Positions 65-39,251 of a stretch of DNA of 39,972 nt are shown piece after piece (position 1 is the first letter of the stretch; each line of letters opens with the position of its first letter). The position numbers and the translations under genes are program-made. The DNA is from a virus. The notes beneath the pieces were generated by a model. That model saw only the letters and a program-made list of their open reading frames with translations, had not been told where the DNA came from and made no database searches. The stretch is taken from the IMG/VR virus record IMGVR_UViG_3300005537_000041, positions 1 through 39,972 of that record; one strand, given 5' to 3'.

Positions 65-110
65 GGGTCGATTTCCTAGTTACGAATGAAGCTCAAACAA
101 TGAACTTCAG
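1..110. repeat. Terminal direct repeat, left copy (circular genome)
   Basis: This stretch is identical, base for base, to 39863-39972. It shows that the molecule closes on itself or has short direct terminal repeats. The reading frame that starts at 39926 is reproduced here from base 64 leftwards, so the join preserves a gene. An assembly overlap of a circular or circularly permuted genome is the simplest explanation; true 110-bp packaging repeats are possible but would be unusual with a P22-like headful portal. Confidence 0.97.
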
Positions 111-1030
111 GCTGCGGGCTGCTCGAATTGCTGCTTCATGAGCTCGTCCTTGTACCACTCGGGTAAGCCGCGAGTGCAACCACGCAGAATGTGATGGCGC
201 GCGTATTCCCACAGGCGTTGTTGGATCTCGGGCACGCACTCTTTCTCCACGTCCGCCTGGACTTCCTTGATGAGATTGCCGATGTCGCGCGGCGAGCCTT
301 CGAGCTTCCCGGCCTCTTTCAGGTGCTGAATTGCTTTGTTCCAGCGCGCCGGGGTCCGCACACTCTCGATCAGCCCCGACACGACATCCGTAGTCGTGGG
401 GTTCTCCTTCTTCCACTCAGCCGCATGGACTTCCTTGAATGCCTCGGACACAAACTTGCCGATAAGCACCTTCTTGTCCGGACCGAAGCGTCGGTAGTTC
501 TTCACCACAACGCCCTCGATTTTTTGGCCTCCCAGCACCGACGTGCGATCGAGCATCGTCCGGAATTGCTCTGGTGTTTCGATGACGCCCTCGAAAACCA
601 GAGGGACACATTCCAGGCCGAGCCGATCGCACTCCGCTGCCTTAGCTGCATAGGGCAGATATTCTTCATGCCCCGTGTTGATGTCGAATACCATCAGGTG
701 CCGATTGGGAATCCGGTCGTATGCGAGCGAGTTGTGCTTCGGCTTCTTCAGGTATTCGGCGCGATACGTCCAGCCCACGGTAAGGGGGAGGTTTTGTGCT
801 ACCTCGACCGCCTCAGTGAACATCTTCTCGGGCGCGATCACATTCAACTGCGCGCCCTTGGATCGGCATTTGAAGTCCGTATGCGATCCGTCCTCGCTTA
901 GGAAAAGACCGAAGGAAAACTGGCTTCCATCGATCTTTTCTTCCACGATAACCGGGTCCAGCAAGAGTTCTGCAAGACCCCTATGGCCGATAGCGAAGGT
1001 GCTCGGGTAGCTGTGCCAACTGGTGAACAT
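107..1030 (-). CDS. RNA ligase (Rnl2-like nucleotidyltransferase)
   Basis: The 307-aa product has the motif order of the ATP-dependent RNA ligase / covalent nucleotidyltransferase family. Motif I is EKIDGSQ, with Lys32 as the expected AMP-accepting nucleophile. YRAEYL lies at 89-94, a FDI motif at 115-117, the motif IV box EGVVVK at 172-177, and a motif V lysine in IGKF near 192. Such enzymes seal nicked RNA or tRNA, which in T4-type phages repairs host anticodon-nuclease damage. Its start overlaps the stop of the upstream 73-aa gene region, in the leftward early operon. The family is clear; whether it seals RNA or another substrate is inference. Confidence 0.88.
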   Translation of the reverse strand: MFTSWHSYPSTFAIGHRGLAELLLDPVIVEEKIDGSQFSFGLFLSEDGSHTDFKCRSKGAQLNVIAPEKMFTEAVEVAQNLPLTVGWTYRAEYLKKPKHNSLAYDRIPNRHLMVFDINTGHEEYLPYAAKAAECDRLGLECVPLVFEGVIETPEQFRTMLDRTSVLGGQKIEGVVVKNYRRFGPDKKVLIGKFVSEAFKEVHAAEWKKENPTTTDVVSGLIESVRTPARWNKAIQHLKEAGKLEGSPRDIGNLIKEVQADVEKECVPEIQQRLWEYARHHILRGCTRGLPEWYKDELMKQQFEQPAA

Positions 1031-2824: not shown

Positions 2825-3561
2825 TTGGACGCCTCCCGGTCGGCCTGCTCGATGCGCGCCTTGCAGGCGTCCTTCACGGCGCCCAGCGTCTTACGCTGCG
2901 CCGCGGTGAGCGCACCCCATGCCTTCTGGAGCGCTGGCAGGGACGCGCAGCCTTCGAGGATCTTCTTGCCCTCGGCGTCCGGCTCGGTTTTGCCCTTCGG
3001 GTCGTTGCCGTCGTTGTCCAGATCCCCGATGGCGACGTTGAAAATCCCTTTCAGGAGGTAGCGCATTCCGTACTGCATCCCCGCGCCCGTGGCGTGGGTC
3101 TTCGTCATCACGTCACCGCCCTTGGCACCCTTGCCGTCCCGCGGCATGTCGATCGTGTAGGGCCGGGTATGCGCGCCCTTGGAAACCAGCGCGATCACTT
3201 GGATGTACTCGGCCCCCAGCGGTGAGGCGGCGGTGTTGTAGCTGATGGCGAAGCCGTGCCGGCTGTAGATCGGGCGCAGCGCGGCATCGAGTTGCGAATA
3301 TGTGGCGTAGTTGCTGCGCGTCTGCGGGTTGAAGGCGTCGGCGTGAACCTGCCGGACCTCCTTCTGGCATTCCGCCATCGCGTCATTCCAGGCGGTTTCC
3401 GCCTCGCGCGCCACGATGCGCTCGTACATCCCCATCAGGCGCTCCATCTTGTCGATGTCTGCCGCGGGGTTCTGCGCTGCGCTCTGGATCACCTGCAGGA
3501 GGGTCGTGGCGCTCGTAGCCACCGGAAGATCCTTCGGCATCACTTGGGGAACTGCGCTCAT
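2821..3561 (-). CDS. erf: ERF-family single-strand annealing recombinase
   Basis: The ATG at 3559-3561 follows a GAGAGG site; an upstream open extension overlaps the next gene and is not used. The 246-aa protein carries the ERF core: a region around YATYSQLDAALRPI, then HGFAISYNT, and a THATGAGMQYGMRYLLKG stretch typical of Erf-like annealing proteins. These form rings on ssDNA and promote RecA-independent annealing, useful for genome circularisation. Paired with the YqaJ exonuclease downstream and next to Ref and NinB upstream, it forms a full recombination cassette. Confidence 0.9.
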   Translation of the reverse strand: MSAVPQVMPKDLPVATSATTLLQVIQSAAQNPAADIDKMERLMGMYERIVAREAETAWNDAMAECQKEVRQVHADAFNPQTRSNYATYSQLDAALRPIYSRHGFAISYNTAASPLGAEYIQVIALVSKGAHTRPYTIDMPRDGKGAKGGDVMTKTHATGAGMQYGMRYLLKGIFNVAIGDLDNDGNDPKGKTEPDAEGKKILEGCASLPALQKAWGALTAAQRKTLGAVKDACKARIEQADREASK

Positions 3562-3824
3562 GCGAGCCTCTCGATAGTTTTGGCGAGCAGCTTCGTTTCG
3601 CTCGTTTTGTACCGGGCGTTGAAGGCCCGCTCGCCGAGTCCGTGAAAGCCCGTTGCGCCCTGGTGGTGCTCGGGGCACAGGGGAATGGTCAGGAAGTCAT
3701 TGCGATCGGCGCTGTCGCCGATGTGGTGAACCTGCGCGGGCACGTAGTCGCGCCCGAGCTCGCGGCAGAGGATGCAGCCGATGGAGGCGACGCGCTCCAT
3801 GTGGTGGCTGGCCTTCTTGGTCAA
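3558..3824 (-). CDS. Ref-like RecA-dependent nuclease (HNH fold)
   Basis: A TTG start at 3822-3824 is chosen because GGGAGG lies four bases upstream and it overlaps the previous stop in a TTGA. The 88-aa product has the hallmarks of the Ref (recombination enhancement, RecA-dependent nuclease) group: CILCRELG, VHHIG, the run IPLCPEHHQG and FHGLGERAF. The His and Cys pairs fit an HNH-type metal site. P1 Ref cuts DNA at RecA-made displacement loops. It is short and lacks the long N-terminal tail of P1 Ref, which is common in lambdoid homologues. Confidence 0.85.
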   Translation of the reverse strand: MTKKASHHMERVASIGCILCRELGRDYVPAQVHHIGDSADRNDFLTIPLCPEHHQGATGFHGLGERAFNARYKTSETKLLAKTIERLA

Positions 3825-4138
3825 GCGACCTCCCGCAGCATCGGGTCGGACCAGCGCACGCCGCGCTCGTCGCCGAATACGATGATTTGCGTGATGAGGT
3901 CGGCCATTTCGGGAACGACCAAGCCCCGAGAGGCGCGGACGTTCACCACGATGAATGGCGCGTGCGGGTCGAAGGGATTCGGCACGGTGCGCTGGCCGTG
4001 CGCCGCGGCGAGGAAAAGGCGTTTCCAGTCCTCCTCGCTCATGGAGCCGCCAGCCCATTCGAGTTGATCCGCGATGTCGCGGATGGCCGCATGGAACTTC
4101 TTGTTCTGTTCGGCCGTGCGGATCTCGTCGGGATTCAT
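3821..4138 (-). CDS. ninB: NinB-like recombination protein
   Basis: The ATG at 4136-4138 overlaps the previous stop. The 105-aa protein resembles NinB (lambda Orf family): RTAEQNKKFHAAIRDIA near the start, then a MSEEDWKRLFL stretch and a central VVPEMADLITQIIVFGDERGV segment. Lambda Orf binds ssDNA and helps RecA-type loading, replacing RecFOR functions. Here it sits ahead of Ref and ERF in the leftward operon rather than in a nin region on the right side. Confidence 0.85.
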   Translation of the reverse strand: MNPDEIRTAEQNKKFHAAIRDIADQLEWAGGSMSEEDWKRLFLAAAHGQRTVPNPFDPHAPFIVVNVRASRGLVVPEMADLITQIIVFGDERGVRWSDPMLREVA

Positions 4139-4377
4139 CCCTTTTTCACCTTCGCGGCCTTGCATTGGTGGTAGGCCTTGGAAGCCTTCTCCGCGCAGCC
4201 CATGGACTCGATCACGTCCACCGGCTGGGGCTGGGGAGGGATGCGGACAAAGACGGGTTTGGGGTCGTGCTGGTGCGAGACATAGCCCATGACTTCCAGC
4301 CCAAGGAAAACGCCCACGAGGAAGACCATCCCCGCAGCCCACCAGGCGGTCGATTTGCGCACGTAGAGATCGCTCAC
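4135..4377 (-). CDS. Small inner-membrane protein, 80 aa
   Basis: GTG at 4375-4377 overlaps the stop of the preceding 126-aa gene (GTGA). One strong transmembrane helix lies at about residues 11-32, from WWAAGMVFLVGVFLGLEVMGY. A Pro-rich linker (PVFVRIPPQPQP) and a Cys/Lys-rich tail with two cysteines (residues 61 and 72) follow. The short positive N-terminus suggests the tail is outside the cytoplasm. No family was recognised. Position as the second gene behind pL suggests an early role such as exclusion or host takeover, but that is inference. Confidence 0.65.
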   Translation of the reverse strand: MSDLYVRKSTAWWAAGMVFLVGVFLGLEVMGYVSHQHDPKPVFVRIPPQPQPVDVIESMGCAEKASKAYHQCKAAKVKKG

Positions 4378-4754
4378 CACGAAGGGCAACCCTCGTCTTC
4401 GCGCGTGTCGTAGCCGATTGGCTTGCGATCCTCGGCTTCTTCCCACTCGTATTGCTTGAGGAGGACCGGGTAATCGGCACCGAAGAAGGCTTTGCGGGAA
4501 GCGTCCGAATCCCCCGCGAAGACCGACTCGCGGAAGGTCATCATCTGGATCTCGAACATTTCGTTTTCCAGCGCGTGGAGTCCTTCCCGCTGGGGCTCCG
4601 TCATGTCCTGATAGCCAATCCCCGGAAGGTAGGCATGCACCTTCGCCTCGGCTTCCTGGATCGCTTGACGGTTGGCGGGAATGTCCACGTAGGCCGAGCG
4701 GAGCAGCCTTTCCATGGCGGCGAGCAGCGGGTCATTCCGGATTCGGTCGTTCAT
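4374..4754 (-). CDS. First gene of the leftward early operon, 126 aa, unknown
   Basis: ATG at 4752-4754 with a strong AAGGAGG six bases upstream; a longer in-frame start would include the operator region and is rejected. The product is acidic and mainly helical, with no recognised domain. Its place directly behind pL is where lambda carries its antiterminator N, but it lacks the Arg-rich N-terminus of N-type proteins, so an antitermination role is not supported. The preceding promoter carries two operator-like sites, so its expression should be repressed in the lysogen. Confidence 0.7.
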   Translation of the reverse strand: MNDRIRNDPLLAAMERLLRSAYVDIPANRQAIQEAEAKVHAYLPGIGYQDMTEPQREGLHALENEMFEIQMMTFRESVFAGDSDASRKAFFGADYPVLLKQYEWEEAEDRKPIGYDTREDEGCPSW

Positions 4755-4771: not shown

Positions 4772-4785
4772 TGAGGCATATTTGC
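4772..4785 (+). promoter_or_regulatory. Operator-like site A (pL region)
   Basis: The plus strand reads TGAGGCATATTTGC. It matches the consensus built from sites B, C and D (cTAGG-c/a-ATA-n-n-TGC). It overlaps the expected -10 region of the leftward promoter. It is a candidate binding site for the repressor or the Cro-like protein. Confidence 0.6.
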
Positions 4786-4807
4786 ATAGGTCAGCAGGCA
4801 TTGTCAA
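4780..4807 (-). promoter_or_regulatory. Leftward early promoter, pL-like
   Basis: On the minus strand a perfect -35 TTGACA (complement of 4802-4807) is followed 18 bases later by AAATAT, a weak -10. The -35 box is directly adjacent to operator-like site B. The promoter points at the 126-aa gene and the recombination operon. The -10 match is poor, so the exact start is uncertain. Confidence 0.55.
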
Positions 4808-4821
4808 GCATTTATGCCTAG
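4808..4821 (-). promoter_or_regulatory. Operator-like site B (pL region)
   Basis: The minus strand reads CTAGGCATAAATGC and is followed at once by the TTGACA of pL. Site C before the rightward promoter is arranged in the same way. Centre-to-centre distance to site A is 36 bp. Confidence 0.6.
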
Positions 4822-4836
4822 GTACAAGCAAATTTT

Positions 4837-5052
4837 TTAGCGGGGCGGGCAGCTCCGAATGCAGCCCTCAAGTGCCTGTTTGCACTGATAGTTATTGATG
4901 GCCTTGGGGATCACGGCTCCCGCGGGCGCTACGCAGAACGAATAATTCTGGCTACATTGCTGCGCACAAATTGGCTCGGCCTTCGTCATGTCTACATCGG
5001 CGATGCTAACGCAGCCGGCGCATGCGAGCGCGGCCAGGTAAATAGCCCTCAT
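4837..5052 (-). CDS. Secreted Cys-rich small lipoprotein co-transcribed with the repressor
   Basis: The 71-aa product starts MRAIYLAALACAGC, a short signal peptide ending in a lipobox-like ACAGC; the -3 residue is Cys instead of the usual Leu, so lipidation is likely but not certain. Seven further cysteines follow in the mature part, in CAQQC and C-x-S-C type arrangements that suggest disulfides in the periplasm. Its ATG overlaps the stop of the repressor gene (ATGA), so it should be expressed in the lysogen. That makes it a candidate lysogenic-conversion or superinfection-exclusion gene; the function is inferred from position only. Confidence 0.7.
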   Translation of the reverse strand: MRAIYLAALACAGCVSIADVDMTKAEPICAQQCSQNYSFCVAPAGAVIPKAINNYQCKQALEGCIRSCPPR

Positions 5053-5432
5053 TTGCTCTGCCTCCCTAGTTGTACGGCCATGTCTGCCGCTTCTTGGATC
5101 TTCTGGTAAAGCCGCTTTTCCGCGTCCGAAAGGGGCTGCAGGACGGGCGGGTTGCTGAGCGGCCAGTCCCCTTGGACTAGGAGCGCCCAGGGAGCTACGC
5201 CCAAAGCCTCGGCGATTTGGTGCAGCGTAGTGACTGAAAGCGAAGTTTTAGCCTTTAGCAGCTTGCTGATGAAGGTCTGATCAATCTTCGCGTCTCGAGC
5301 GAGCTGGGACTGGTTCCCGGCGATCGTGCCGTGCTGCTTATAGAGCCGGTTGATGTTGCCGATGACGACCGTATCAGTGCCAGAAAGGCCGCGGCGGCTT
5401 TCTGACTCCGGGACCATGGGCGGTTTAGGCAT
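5049..5432 (-). CDS. cI-like repressor (XRE-type HTH)
   Basis: ATG at 5430-5432 is preferred over longer in-frame starts that would run through the pR operators. The 127-aa product has a helix-turn-helix near residues 42-66: NQSQLARDAKIDQTFISKLL, followed by TLHQIAEALGVAPWALL, the usual XRE fold. A short C-terminal helical tail (DAEKRLYQKIQEAADM) may mediate dimerisation. There is no S24/LexA-type peptidase domain, unlike lambda CI. It is divergent from the cro-like gene and followed by the lipoprotein gene. Role as prophage repressor is inferred from fold and arrangement. Confidence 0.85.
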   Translation of the reverse strand: MPKPPMVPESESRRGLSGTDTVVIGNINRLYKQHGTIAGNQSQLARDAKIDQTFISKLLKAKTSLSVTTLHQIAEALGVAPWALLVQGDWPLSNPPVLQPLSDAEKRLYQKIQEAADMAVQLGRQSK

Positions 5433-5454
5433 TTCTGCATTGTCCCGCGCGGTC

Positions 5455-5468
5455 CTAGGAATATGTAC
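5455..5468 (+). promoter_or_regulatory. Operator-like site C (pR region)
   Basis: The plus strand reads CTAGGAATATGTAC, one base before the TTGACA of pR. Its first ten bases form an exact inverted repeat with ATATTCCTAG at 5486-5495. It shares the CTAGG-n-ATA core with sites A, B and D. Confidence 0.65.
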
Positions 5469-5469
5469 C

Positions 5470-5498
5470 TTGACATGTCCGGCAAATATTCCTAGACT
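5470..5498 (+). promoter_or_regulatory. Rightward early promoter, pR-like
   Basis: A perfect -35 TTGACA at 5470-5475 and a -10 TAGACT at 5493-5498 are separated by exactly 17 bases. Site C abuts the -35 box and site D overlaps the -10 box, so operator binding would block polymerase. The expected transcription start (about 5505-5506) coincides with the ATG of the cro-like gene. Confidence 0.75.
5482..5495 (-). promoter_or_regulatory. Operator-like site D (pR region)
   Basis: The minus strand reads CTAGGAATATTTGC, the closest match to the shared consensus. It lies between the -35 and -10 boxes and overlaps the -10 of pR. Centre-to-centre distance to site C is 27 bp. Confidence 0.65.
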
Positions 5499-5505
5499 TT
5501 GGGCC

Positions 5506-5709
5506 ATGAACGCTCCCGACATTCCAGCCCTTCGCGCTGAGGTGATTGCGCGAAAGGGGCAATGGGCTGCGCTTGCGCGAGTAGGCGAGCTCGATTATTC
5601 ATGGGTCGTTCGCTTCGCGCGCGGGGCCATCGCAGAGCCTCGGCTTTCGCGCCTGCAGACACTTCGTGATGCCCTGGACCGCCTCCCCATCGAGGCGCGT
5701 CCGCAATGA
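5506..5709 (+). CDS. Cro-like DNA-binding protein
   Basis: The 67-aa product is divergent from the repressor and is the first gene behind pR. A helix-turn-helix-like stretch lies at about residues 18-46: QWAALARVGELDYSWVVRFARG. This size and place fit a Cro protein that would shut off early transcription. No Shine-Dalgarno sequence precedes the ATG, and the promoter geometry puts the mRNA 5' end at or next to the ATG. The assignment rests on position and HTH pattern, not on close similarity to a named Cro. Confidence 0.75.
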   Translation: MNAPDIPALRAEVIARKGQWAALARVGELDYSWVVRFARGAIAEPRLSRLQTLRDALDRLPIEARPQ

Positions 5710-5794: not shown

Positions 5795-6106
5795 ATGACG
5801 GCAGACGTTACCGACTTCCCCGCGCCCGAGTCACGCCCAAAGAGGGGCGCGCTTCGGGAACGCTTCGAGGAAATGAAGGACGCTGCGCTGGATGCGGCGA
5901 TGGGAAAGGGCGAGTCTTGGGCCAAGAAAGTCGGCTACGGAACCTCGGGGATCCTGCTTGATGACGTGCCGCGGCTAATCGACGTGCTGGGCCTCAAGTT
6001 GGTGGACAAGTCCAAGGTTTGCGTCGATCGCAACGTGTACGAGGCCTACAAGACATTGGCCGGCACGGCGATTACCGAGCCGCGGAAGCTCGATTGGGAC
6101 GAATGA
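5795..6106 (+). CDS. cII-like transcription activator
   Basis: ATG at 5795-5797. The 103-aa product has the CII-type pattern in its second half: SWAKKVGYGTSGILLDDVPRL, then GLKLVDKSKVCVDRNVYEAYKTLA, close to phage CII proteins that bind as tetramers and turn on the repressor. The N-terminal 40 residues are an acidic/basic helical extension not present in lambda CII. No clear ribosome-binding site precedes the ATG. It lies behind the tR1-like terminator and overlaps the next gene (ATGA). Confidence 0.75.
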   Translation: MTADVTDFPAPESRPKRGALRERFEEMKDAALDAAMGKGESWAKKVGYGTSGILLDDVPRLIDVLGLKLVDKSKVCVDRNVYEAYKTLAGTAITEPRKLDWDE

Positions 6107-27808: not shown

Positions 27809-29838
27809 GCCTCGCTGATGACTTCCTACAAGCTGCGGATGTAGCCGATCAGGGGATGCCGTCATCCCTCTCCGATCAGTTCGCTCAAGCCGCCCAAGGC
27901 GCGCCGCCCCCGCCTCGTCGGCCATTGCAGCCTCCGCAAGAGCTTTCCTTGATGGACCGGCTCCTCGCCCACGTTCCGGATTCGCTCGTCAACAACAGGG
28001 CAATGACTGCGGTGCGCGGGACTGTGATGGGCGCTGCCGATCCGGTTGTGGGAACCGCACAGGCGGCGGCGAACCTCTTGCCGAACTCGACGGGCATTCC
28101 GCAGGCCGTCAACCAGGCCGTGACGGACAAGGATGCGCAGTACCAAGCCGAGCGCCGCGGGCAGGGCATGACCGGCTTTGACCCCGCGCGCATGGGCGGC
28201 AACTTCCTGTCGCCCGTCAATTTGGCGATGGCGTTGCGCGCCGCTCCGGCGGTGACTGCTACGGCGCGGGCTTTTCAGGGGGCGGGAACTGGATTTGTTG
28301 GGGGCCTAACCGCGCCTGTCGATGTCGGACCCTCCGGAAACTACTGGGCACCCAAGGCCGTGCAGACCACCCTTGCAACCGCCGCCGGAGGTGTATTGGC
28401 TCCCGCCGCCGGCTGGATTGGGGACAAGGCCATTCCGGCCGTGAACTCTCTTATTGCAAGATTCAAAGGCGGCATGGATCCAGCCGAGGCCGCAGCGAAG
28501 ACGGATTCGATCCTCTCTGATGCCCTCTCGGAGACGGGGCAGACGACAGAAAATGTTCCGCCCGCGCAACTCGCCGTGGTGCGCCAGCAAGTTCAGGATG
28601 CGCTATCGAAGGGCAAGAAGCTAGATGCCGCCGCAGCGCTTCGTCTCTCCGATTTCGAGGCGCAGGACATTCCTTCCACGCAAGCTCAGATCACCCGCGA
28701 CCCGATGCAGTTTGCCGACGAGCAGACCATGCGGTCTATTAGCCGGCCCCTCAATCAAACGATGGAGCTCGGCAACAAGAAGGTAACGCAGGGCATCGGG
28801 CAATACAGCGCAAACGCTGCAGAGGCTCCGGTTGCGGCCGCGGATCTCGCTACGGCGCTACGCAACTATGACGCCAGCAAAGCCGCAAACGTAAGGACCG
28901 CATATGCAACTGCTCGCGCCTCAGCCGGGAAGGATCTGGAGGTTCCAACCGCGGGCCTGACGGATGCCTATAAGCAAACCATGGAGGATTTTGGCGATTA
29001 CGTTCCCAAGGTACTGCAAGACAAATTCTCGGCGCTAGAGAAACAGCCCCTCACCTTTGAAGGGGCCGACAAACTACGCCAGAGCATCAATACTCTTGTA
29101 ACCAATGATCCGAATGACCGCACGAACCTTGCCCTTGGGACGCTGCGCTCCGCGCTGAATAATGCGCAGAAGGAGGTATCCGCGACTGGTGGGCCTTTCG
29201 CCCCCGCGGTGAAACTTGCCTCTGAGCGATTCGGACAGCAGGAAGCCATTCCAGCCCTTGGGGCCGCAGTCAACGGAGATGCCGGCGACAACTTCGTCCA
29301 AAAGTATGTCATCAACGGGCAGACGCAGGATGTTCAAAAACTCGCTTCACTCCTGCGCGAACAAGCGCCGGATGCGTTCGACCAAACTCGGCAACAGATC
29401 GGGGCGCATCTCGCGCGCAAGGCGTTCGGCGAGAACGTAGCCGCCGACAAAGCCGTCGCCCAGGAAAGCTACAACAAAGCGCTTCGTGAGCTCGGGACCG
29501 GAAAGCTAGGGGCGTTCTTCGAGCCGCAGGAGGTGGATCAACTTCAGCGCCTCGGAAGAATTGCGGCCTACCAACAATCGAATCCTGCCGCAGCGGCCTC
29601 CAACTTCTCGAACAGTGCTGGCGCGTTTGCGAATCTTCTGAGGAGCGGGGCGGGGCTTCCCTTTGCGGGAAAGACCCTGCAGTTCGCAGGAGAAAAACTA
29701 GGCGGCTACGCCGCTACGCATCCCGTTGTTCCCATCACCGGGAACATGAGCGATGCGCAACTACTGATGCTCTCGAACCTGCTCCGTGGCGGAAGTGGCG
29801 CGGCTGGCCTTGCGCTTTCCGGGGCTGTAGGACAGTAG
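27805..29838 (+). CDS. Large DNA-ejection protein, 677 aa
   Basis: GTG at 27805 overlaps the previous stop. This is the second largest protein. The N-terminal third has a hydrophobic/amphipathic segment (VMGAADPVVGTAQAAANLLP and VGGLTAPVD), then long helices rich in Ala, Gln and Asp (AADLATALRNYDASKAANVRTAY). The last residues form another hydrophobic Gly/Ala run. The plan matches ejection proteins of P22/T7-like phages that cross the envelope. No lytic transglycosylase motif was seen. Confidence 0.7.
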   Translation: MSLADDFLQAADVADQGMPSSLSDQFAQAAQGAPPPPRRPLQPPQELSLMDRLLAHVPDSLVNNRAMTAVRGTVMGAADPVVGTAQAAANLLPNSTGIPQAVNQAVTDKDAQYQAERRGQGMTGFDPARMGGNFLSPVNLAMALRAAPAVTATARAFQGAGTGFVGGLTAPVDVGPSGNYWAPKAVQTTLATAAGGVLAPAAGWIGDKAIPAVNSLIARFKGGMDPAEAAAKTDSILSDALSETGQTTENVPPAQLAVVRQQVQDALSKGKKLDAAAALRLSDFEAQDIPSTQAQITRDPMQFADEQTMRSISRPLNQTMELGNKKVTQGIGQYSANAAEAPVAAADLATALRNYDASKAANVRTAYATARASAGKDLEVPTAGLTDAYKQTMEDFGDYVPKVLQDKFSALEKQPLTFEGADKLRQSINTLVTNDPNDRTNLALGTLRSALNNAQKEVSATGGPFAPAVKLASERFGQQEAIPALGAAVNGDAGDNFVQKYVINGQTQDVQKLASLLREQAPDAFDQTRQQIGAHLARKAFGENVAADKAVAQESYNKALRELGTGKLGAFFEPQEVDQLQRLGRIAAYQQSNPAAAASNFSNSAGAFANLLRSGAGLPFAGKTLQFAGEKLGGYAATHPVVPITGNMSDAQLLMLSNLLRGGSGAAGLALSGAVGQ

Positions 29839-33411: not shown

Positions 33412-34404
33412 TTAGGCCGCTTTCTTGGCCTTCGTCCTTTTCCTGATGGGCGCTCTGATGGGCTTGAGCGCCTTTTCCAGGGCTTTCCTTCGGGCTCCCA
33501 TGTCCGTATGGACGTAGCGCCGATGGGTCTCCACGGACTTGTGCCCCATGATGTCCATGGACACCCGTAGATCGGCCCTGGAACGCGCCAGGGCGCTCGC
33601 CACCATGTGGCGAAGGTCATGGTAGCGGATGTCGAGCTTGGCCTTCTCACGGGCTCGCTCGAAGCCCCTATAGACATTCCGCCAGCCGGCGCGGAAGGGG
33701 ATTTGGGATAGGTGGGGCTTCAACTCGGGCAGGATGGGGATGATGCGATCGGCCCCGTTCTTCGTGTCTCGGGCGACGATTACCCCGCCTTTCACGTCCG
33801 ACGGAGTGAGCTTCAGGACTTCCCCCAGGCGAAGGCCGGTATAGGCCGAGAGGGCGATGAGGGCCTTGGCCCTAGCCGTGGAGGCTTTCTCGATCAGGAG
33901 CGCGGCCATTTCGGGGGTCACTTCCCGGCGCTCATACTTCTTCTCCGGTAGGAGCTGGATCCTCGAGGAGAGGTTTTCTTCCGTCCAGCCCTTGCGCCAT
34001 GCGAACTTGGCGACGGCCTTTAGGATGCAGAGCCGGCGATTAATCGTCCCCGGCTTGAGCGTTCCCACCTTAATGCATTCAACTGCCCGTCCAAGCTCGC
34101 CCAAAGCAAATCCATCTGATACTGAAATAACGCAGCTTGCGTGGCTTCGCGTTGCCTTTTCGCTCTTTCGTCCCGTAACCGCTTCAGCCAACCAGGTGTT
34201 GATGGCGCTTTCAAGGGTGACATTTGGCCTCTTTCCTATGACCGCTTGGTCGATGTAGTCGTGCCGGAGACGAGTTTCAAGCTGGGACGCCTGCTCTTTC
34301 GTCGCGCCGGGCGGGAGCCGTCGAAAAATACGACTTCCGCGCACCTCGAACTCGACGGCATAGCGCTTCCTGCCTTGCTCGTCTTTCCATCCCCGGACCC
34401 CCAT
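33412..34404 (-). CDS. int: Tyrosine-family integrase
   Basis: The 330-aa protein has a basic N-terminal arm-binding domain (RGWKDEQGRKRYAVEFEVRG), a core-binding domain (about residues 60-160) and a catalytic domain with the full set: Arg192 in TGLRLGEVL, Lys215, His262 and Arg265 in YHDLRHMVAS, His288 in MGHKS and the nucleophile Tyr297 in RRYVH. It recombines attP with the tRNA-Lys attB. Located at the end of the leftward operon next to attP, and its start is inside the excisionase frame. Confidence 0.95.
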   Translation of the reverse strand: MGVRGWKDEQGRKRYAVEFEVRGSRIFRRLPPGATKEQASQLETRLRHDYIDQAVIGKRPNVTLESAINTWLAEAVTGRKSEKATRSHASCVISVSDGFALGELGRAVECIKVGTLKPGTINRRLCILKAVAKFAWRKGWTEENLSSRIQLLPEKKYERREVTPEMAALLIEKASTARAKALIALSAYTGLRLGEVLKLTPSDVKGGVIVARDTKNGADRIIPILPELKPHLSQIPFRAGWRNVYRGFERAREKAKLDIRYHDLRHMVASALARSRADLRVSMDIMGHKSVETHRRYVHTDMGARRKALEKALKPIRAPIRKRTKAKKAA

Positions 34405-38421: not shown

Positions 38422-38498
38422 GTCGTTCTCCCTGATGGGAATGCTGAGTGAACCTCATCCGTGGAATCGCCTGCGATTTCGCAGATTTGCCCGCTCAT
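38418..38498 (-). CDS. Possible 26-aa coupling peptide
   Basis: ATG 38496-38498 overlaps the methylase remnant stop, and its stop overlaps the next gene's GTG. The chain is acidic (CEIAGDSTDEVHSAF). It may be a real small protein or only a translational-coupling element. Confidence 0.4.
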   Translation of the reverse strand: MSGQICEIAGDSTDEVHSAFPSGRTT

Positions 38499-39102
38499 GC
38501 CGCGCGACCCGCAGATTTGGCTGCGCCGCGCCGCTTGGCGATGCGCTCCTCCTGCTCCTGGTCCAGCCACGCCACAGCGCGCTGCGCCCGCGTGTGCATC
38601 GCCGCTTGCCGTAGCCCCTCCGAGGCGTTGGCCTCGAACACCGCCCGCGCGAAGCCCGGAGGGGTGGCGGCTCGCAAGTTGGCGCGATTCTCGGACGGCG
38701 CCATGAGGTGCATCTTCGAGCCCTCCGTGGGCTCTACCCATGTCGGCTTGTCGAACATATCGCCCGGCTTGATGACGGGCGGCATGCGGAAGCCGTTACC
38801 GGTCCAAAGCCAAGTTTCCTTTGTGTACGGGTCGCCGTAGTCGTTTGGGTCGAACTTGAAGTTCGGCTCCCCGATGTGGGGGATCGAGACGAGACAGGTG
38901 ACGGGGTGCTCGACCATGTAGGGTGCCCCCGACCATGCCCCGGCCATCCGGGCGGCCTCGAAGGTCTCCAGATGTTCCCTTCCTTCCTGGGCTTGCGGAT
39001 CGAATGCTGCGTATCGACGCACCAGCACTCCACGCCAGCGTCCGCCCAAGGCTCCGCCATGATCGGAGTCTTGCTGCACAGGAAGATGGCGATGATGTTC
39101 AT
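38495..39102 (-). pseudogene. Broken phage DNA-methylase gene (centre deleted, frame shifted)
   Basis: From ATG 39100-39102 one frame gives IIAIFLCSKTPIMAEPWADAG and CWCVDTQHSIRKPRKEGNI, the start of a phage SAM-dependent DNA methylase. The matching C-terminal part is in another frame: TFEAARMAGAWSGAPYMVEHPV, YGDPYTKETWLWTGNGF and TPPGFARAVFEAN. The join lies near 38975. The middle, which in relatives carries the WGD and PPC catalytic part, is missing. Family recall is from known phage proteins, so the exact modification is not stated. The C-terminal frame could still be made as a fragment. Confidence 0.75.
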
Positions 39103-39251
39103 TACTTGAGGAACTCGCGCCGAAGCTCACAGCGCCTATTTGCAGCCGCGATACGCTCGTCCATGTTGTTGCGTTGCCACCAGCCGGAAGCCTTGAGGCG
39201 TTCGATTTCGTTGTCCCGCTGAATCTCTTCGTAGGTTCTCGGGTCTTTCAT
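39102..39251 (-). CDS. Hypothetical 49-aa protein
   Basis: GGAGGCGGAA precedes the ATG (39249-39251). The chain is one charged helix (TYEEIQRDNEIERLKASGWWQRNNMDERIAAANRRCE) and ends at a stop that overlaps the methylase-remnant ATG (TAATG). Small, but with good signals at both ends. Confidence 0.6.
   Translation of the reverse strand: MKDPRTYEEIQRDNEIERLKASGWWQRNNMDERIAAANRRCELRREFLK

Follow-up and report, generated by a model that had tools for sequence, protein, structure and literature searches.

A repeated operator-like word at both early promoters of an uncultured temperate phage with a lambda-like early region

Phage lambda carries divergent cI and cro genes with operators at both early promoters, a CII gene after cro, and exonuclease and annealing-protein genes on the left. 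The lambda-type CII site is TTGC-N6-TTGC. The closest documented layout that we found for the locus described here is the immB region of phages phiKO2 and N15, a likeness drawn from the operator layout in part of the published description. The portion of that description used here gives five 16-bp operators that overlap promoters, three of them (OR) between the repressor gene and cro and two of them OL, and states that self-cleavage residues were not detected in the repressor, CB (PMC4997575). In lactococcal phage TP901-1, according to the cited portion of the source, a repressor that lacks a peptidase domain is still inducible via an unknown RecA-dependent route (PMC11149083).

We analyzed a 39,972-base virus record of 60% G+C (referred to here as the window), the first 25 kb of which had no megablast match among 50,697 phage records. 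Its switch region contains a small CI-like repressor gene (5049-5432, minus strand; 127 aa; best PHROG phrog_4583) and a Cro-like gene (5506-5709, plus strand; 67 aa; weak phrog_9425 match, E = 2.9e-4), with a CII-like regulator (phrog_725) at 5798-6106 on the plus strand. An exonuclease and Erf-like gene pair reads leftward, and an integrase match lies at 33415-34404 (minus strand). Considering the integrase, the exonuclease/Erf pair, the small HTH repressor, and the Cro-like and CII-like genes together, the record represents a temperate phage whose early region resembles that of lambda. The left early operon begins with a gene of unassigned function (4374-4754, minus strand; 126 aa) that has AAGGAGG before its ATG. 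Downstream of the repressor gene is a 71-aa ORF (4837-5052, minus strand) whose ATG overlaps the repressor stop codon. Its product is cysteine-rich and small secreted or lipoprotein-like, with a signal-like N-terminus; family scans of this ORF gave no match, and it is a candidate lysogeny gene, positioned like rex in lambda or hex in 434. Elsewhere in the window, an RNA-ligase family protein (phrog_548; 107-1030, minus strand) is an unexpected passenger for a temperate phage of this size, and a DNA methyltransferase match (phrog_757) is present at 38498-39130 (minus strand). We propose that the switch region is very probably a bipartite operator of the lambda/N15 type, with two OL and two, probably three, OR sites that are bound by the 127-aa repressor and keep the prophage silent.

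Operators and promoters of the switch region

The operators share the word TAGG(C/A)ATA-NN-TGC and are imperfect 16-bp palindromes with the ideal form TAGGCATATATGCCTA. On the left, operator A (OL; 4773-4788, GAGGCATATTTGCATA) overlaps the -10 region and operator B (OL; 4805-4820, CAAGCATTTATGCCTA on the plus strand) abuts the -35 box. On the right, operator C (OR; 5456-5471, TAGGAATATGTACCTT) abuts the -35 box, and the CCTA end of operator D (OR; 5479-5494, CCGGCAAATATTCCTA) runs into the -10 box. A fifth, probably OR3-like site, operator E (5426-5441, TAGGCATTTCTGCATT), lies over the repressor start codon. The original prediction had placed four sites at 4772-4785 (plus strand), 4808-4821 (minus strand), 5455-5468 (plus strand), and 5482-5495 (minus strand), and all four were found at these positions and on these strands, with 0 mismatches to its 14-mer CTAGGMATANNTGC in B and D, 1 in C, and 2 in A. 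It had counted four sites in all and overlooked E, which at 5425-5438 (plus strand) has 2 mismatches to the 14-mer and 1 to a 13-mer version of the word (TAGGMATANNTGC) and overlaps the repressor ATG (5432, minus strand). The convergent orientation that it described within each pair is real but means no more than that each imperfect palindrome has its better half facing outward.

Since a consensus built from the sites themselves is circular, we used a consensus-free statistic, the best set of similar 14-mers across the two promoter regions. The score was 18, compared with a maximum of 15 across 1,471 control positions of matching geometry in the window and a maximum of 14 among 1,000 dinucleotide-preserving shuffles. 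Allowing up to 1 mismatch, the 14-mer had 3 matches against 0.16 expected, a number reached in none of 100 shuffles, and the 13-mer occurred five times and no more in the 39,972 bases, each time inside 4773-5494. At up to 3 mismatches, the word was not enriched in the window (39 found versus 34.3 expected), and it is therefore how well the copies match and how they cluster that carries the signal. When a matrix was trained on the right-side sites only, its top match in the rest of the window was left site A; site B was only seventh outside the gap. A repeat search of the window switch region revealed no other convincing repeated word.

TTGACA occurs six times in the window, both strands included, and two of these occurrences are the perfect -35 boxes of PL (4802-4807, minus strand) and PR (5470-5475, plus strand). 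B adjoins the left box and C the right, just as had been predicted. The PR -10 box, TAGACT (5493-5498, plus strand), follows a 17-bp spacer that holds most of operator D, and it starts with the last two letters of D. The left promoter repeats the right-side order on the opposite strand. Its candidate -10 box, AAATAT after TGC (4778-4783, minus strand; extended -10; 18-bp spacer), is weak and was read from the sequence by eye, a consensus scan having failed to find it. The expectation that the second site of each pair would fall at the -10 region was borne out on the right, where D overlaps TAGACT, and on the left, where A contains the -10 box if this weak best guess is correct. A candidate PRM -10 box, GACAAT (5439-5444, minus strand), was also read by eye and would put the start of the repressor transcript at or next to the repressor ATG, where operator E lies. 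The cro ATG lies 7 nt after the PR -10 box and has no visible Shine-Dalgarno sequence. The corresponding distance is 7 to 9 nt, again with no Shine-Dalgarno sequence, across the window (5493-5509) and a second uncultured virus, L127 (2364-2381), described below, so the cro message may be leaderless in both. Despite the CII-like gene, no TTGC-N6-TTGC site was found near cro or cII; the sole copy in the window is at 28800-28813.

The word and the layout in other phages

We ran a blind DNA pattern consisting of site D and TTGACA alone on 2.9 million viral contigs and obtained 32 stretches. Most of these lie inside long open frames and look like chance. An HTH_3 match was present in 8 of the 32 records, in 6 of which the site lies at these HTH genes or at the promoter paired with them. 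These six records represent four phages (L115, identical to L128; L126, identical to L131; L124; and L127), whereas the HTH gene of L133 and that of L135 lie ~3 kb from the site. A composite exact pattern of the whole OR had no match. Two contigs matching CTAGGMATANNTGC plus TTGACA (L107 and L108) were set aside as chance: they are near-identical around the match and have no second site within 1 kb, their two matches each at up to 1 mismatch being at least 1.3 kb apart.

L127 (IMGVR_UViG_3300037657_000068) was thus found via the DNA word and not via protein similarity. It encodes a peptidase-less, 131-aa repressor and a divergent, 76-aa Cro-like protein that belong to the same PHROGs as those of the window (phrog_4583 and phrog_9425, respectively), and it contains two clusters of the word. 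Its cro is preceded by CTAGGCATGTATGCC-TTGACA-18 bp-TAGAAT, and its leftward gene is preceded by the same operator-promoter arrangement; at both early promoters, one operator abuts TTGACA and the second is merged into the -10 box. Compared with those of the window, the four L127 sites are nearly perfect palindromes, with a center spacing of 24 bp on both sides, and only a half-site is present at the E position. In an alignment of the right-region DNA of the two phages, the operators and promoter formed the best conserved block. A matrix built from the four L127 sites alone ranked the five window sites first to fifth in the whole window (B, A, E, C, and D, in that order), and a matrix built from the five window sites ranked the four L127 sites first to fourth. 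When the half-columns of the L127 matrix were permuted, the top five matches all fell within 750 bp in 2 of 2,000 runs.

These comparisons bear on several parts of the original prediction. The check that it had named beforehand, a search for the word in related phages, yielded L127 and three further phages, all by DNA pattern, and its OL/OR reading gains support from L127, in which both early promoters around a repressor/Cro pair carry two operators each. Two sites per side holds as the core of the arrangement but leaves out a probable third on the right (3 + 2, as in N15/phiKO2). E is third-best in the window by the L127 matrix, with half of it coding and only its half-site counterpart in L127; its GGCAT half is also the complement of Met-Pro codons in the repressor coding sequence. 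We consider E a probable third right-side operator. Finally, the word had been called new. In the literature searched, it was not found in any of four spellings, and its GGAATATTCC core gave heat-shock-factor matches only, but the word is shared with other uncultured viruses.

Besides L127, the word lies beside small HTH genes in L126, L115, and L124, the second site in L115 being poor (6 mismatches). L124 has three copies at 2251-2367, flanked on one side by a Cro-like gene and on the other by an opposing TTGACG promoter. No repressor gene was recognized to the right of these copies, and L124 may hold a switch whose repressor is different or has been lost. The same contig encodes a protein with many near-identical AASGDYSQL/AASGDSSKL repeats (3437-4363, plus strand).

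Protein searches found no relatives of the repressor or Cro in IMG/VR viral contigs, nothing closer to the repressor than E = 3e-5 in INPHARED phages or E = 3e-4 in plasmids, and no relative of the L127 repressor in phages or plasmids at E = 0.01. Scanning genome contigs with the repressor alignment gave two distant matches, in Sphingosinicella and Streptomyces. Among the relatives in the terminase clade (80 kept of 200), no locus contained a relative of the repressor, Cro, or the lipoprotein, and none had the exact 13-mer; a phrog_4583 search in 47 of the 80 records returned four weak matches. Separately, three of these relatives carry 15-base tandem repeats (L020, about 2036-2261; L060, 856-961; and L063, 9-144). 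The word itself can be searched for and could locate the switches of uncultured phages in which repressor divergence defeats protein searches.

Phages in which the small repressor is distantly related use words of their own, again at both promoter regions. Three sites per side are present in Pseudomonas phages 8P and USP_25, and Acetobacter phage phiAP1 has 3 + 2 sites, with the third at the repressor start; Paracoccus phage Pthi1, Mae-JY02, and Pkon1 also keep the layout with their own words. In a held-out test of six phages, training was confined to the right side and the remainder of each record was scanned; a left-side site came first in four (the window, phiAP1, Pthi1, and 8P). The test failed in Pkon1 and Mae-JY02, where automatic training picked another word. 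The consensus-free score was above local controls in four of six loci (the window, L083, L084, and L088) and not above controls in L086 and L082. The window matrix found no switch cluster in 8P, phiAP1, Mae-JY02, or Pkon1, and only one second-ranked match in the repressor-cro gap of Pthi1, as one would predict for a word that goes with the repressor. When whole loci were scanned for repeated palindromic words, tandem repeats in coding sequence dominated the output. One further candidate, L091, which resembles a chromosomal regulator of the cupin type, was excluded. In the Paracoccus phage paper, the term operator is absent from the main text, and in the cited portion only one CI-like protein is given an S24 domain (PMC6536676).

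The regulators and the reading of the word

Family scans of the repressor used the longer open frame at 5052-5522 (157 aa). Pfam returned only HTH-type families for this frame (HTH_3/HTH_26, PF01381/PF13443) and no S24 peptidase domain, while the repressors of IFTN4 and PAJU2, included as positive controls, showed PF00717. The AlphaFold model of the repressor was poor (mean pLDDT, 50.5). Over the whole alignment, the window and L127 repressors are 27% identical, but their helix-3 regions are alike (IDQTFISKLLKA and IDQKTVSRALNE, respectively; 37% identity over 38 aa). Their Cro-like proteins gave no mutual alignment. The similar repressor helix 3, together with the nonaligning Cro-like proteins, favors the view that the repressor reads the word in both phages. 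We infer from these sequences that the repressor is the protein that binds the word, and Cro may bind it too.

Several other readings can be weighed against this one. It is conceivable, though we hold it to be doubtful, that the switch is of a distinct design, with promoter-fused operators (the distal right-side TA forming the first letters of TAGANT and the other site abutting TTGACA), a leaderless cro, and a peptidase-less, 127-aa repressor that acts on five sites at two promoters with no CI self-cleavage. The phrog_4583/phrog_9425/TAGGCATATATGCCTA module would then be distributed across uncultured phages, the word going with the recognition helix and not with the phage lineage, and lysogeny and induction would have to run without CI self-cleavage.

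We think it improbable that the word is mainly the target of the Cro-like protein (or of a CII-like regulator) and that the repressor acts through other sites. The word seems to go with the recognition helix of the repressor: although phrog_9425 is common to the Cro-like proteins of the window, L127, L124, and phage 8P, 8P combines this Cro PHROG with a repressor that differs in helix 3 and with another word. The Cro-like proteins of the window and L127, moreover, fail to align although their words are the same. L124, with its word copies by the Cro-like gene and no recognized repressor gene, fits a Cro target better, but in the window switch region no second convincing word is available as the repressor's other sites.

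Less probable still is that the sites belong to a host regulator (LexA or a nucleoid or stress regulator) and were borrowed for induction. All five copies are confined to the switch of the phage itself, the word is found again next to different phage HTH genes, and the window contains no CTGT-N8-ACAG box, although this motif may not be the LexA box of the host; these points count against such borrowing even though a peptidase-less repressor needs some tie to host stress and phages such as GIL01, in the portion of the source cited, use LexA directly (PMC4551915). There is next to no probability that A+T-rich promoter spacers in a genome of 60% G+C are alike here by chance, because the consensus-free, composition-matched tests and the independent L127 matrix in practice exclude this, however A+T-rich the promoter regions, however ordinary the number of matches at up to 3 mismatches, and however easily short consensus words are found by eye.

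We therefore return to a bipartite operator read by the repressor. At the locus, the repressor and Cro-like genes diverge from an intergenic operator region, the same operator word stands at the right and left early promoters, and the operators overlap the -35 and -10 elements of these promoters, the left -10 being weak. In the proposed working of the switch, repressor dimers would occupy C/D and B/A and cover the -35 and -10 boxes. Repression would turn off the cro and cII-like operon rightward and the exo/erf recombination operon leftward, and with both PL and PR shut off, the prophage would be silent. The most likely role of site E, which covers the repressor ATG, is to adjust how much repressor is made, and some or all of the sites are probably contested by Cro. 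Because the repressor lacks an S24 domain, induction would probably proceed by an antirepressor or another non-cleavage route. No antirepressor family was recognized in the genes scanned; in Gifsy phages, antirepressors are described, in the portion of the source cited, as being under LexA control (PMC9879122). Judged by its domain content, the window would add one more phage whose repressor is not cleavable by the SOS route. The analysis gives a complete regulatory map of an uncultured temperate phage, with five sites, two promoters, one repressor, and one Cro.

Comparison with known switches

Similar to phiKO2 and N15, as far as the cited portion of their description goes (PMC4997575), the window has 16-bp sites that overlap promoters, two of them OL and two, probably three, OR. 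The phiKO2/N15 operator motif, T-A-N10-T-A, is unlike the window's word, the N15-like OL precedes repA whereas the window OL precedes the recombination operon, and the phiKO2/N15 Cro is reported there to bind OR3 only. The window shares with lambda the divergent repressor and cro genes, operators at both early promoters, a CII-like gene after cro, left-side exonuclease and annealing-protein genes, and the spacing, the centers of C and D being 23 bp apart. In contrast to the self-cleaving CI of lambda, the window repressor has 127 aa and lacks an S24 peptidase domain, and its cleavage by RecA is unlikely. Lambda has six operators, by the count in the same source portion (PMC4997575), against five in the window, and the window's word is new relative to lambda.

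TP901-1, as presented in the cited portion of its description (PMC11149083), resembles the window in its related palindromic operators and in a repressor with no peptidase domain. It differs in having the antirepressor MOR instead of Cro and another operator layout and in being a Gram-positive phage; its CI has a helical C-terminal domain, none being identified in the window repressor. Phages phiAP1, Pthi1, 8P, and USP_25 are like the window in their small XRE repressors, divergent Cro, and repeated word at both promoter regions, and unlike it in that the words are their own (TTCGCA-N3-TGCGAA type, AGGAATATTCCT, and TCCGTATNCGGA). Set beside these systems, the switch of the window is largely ordinary in kind and well conserved, and what is new is its word.
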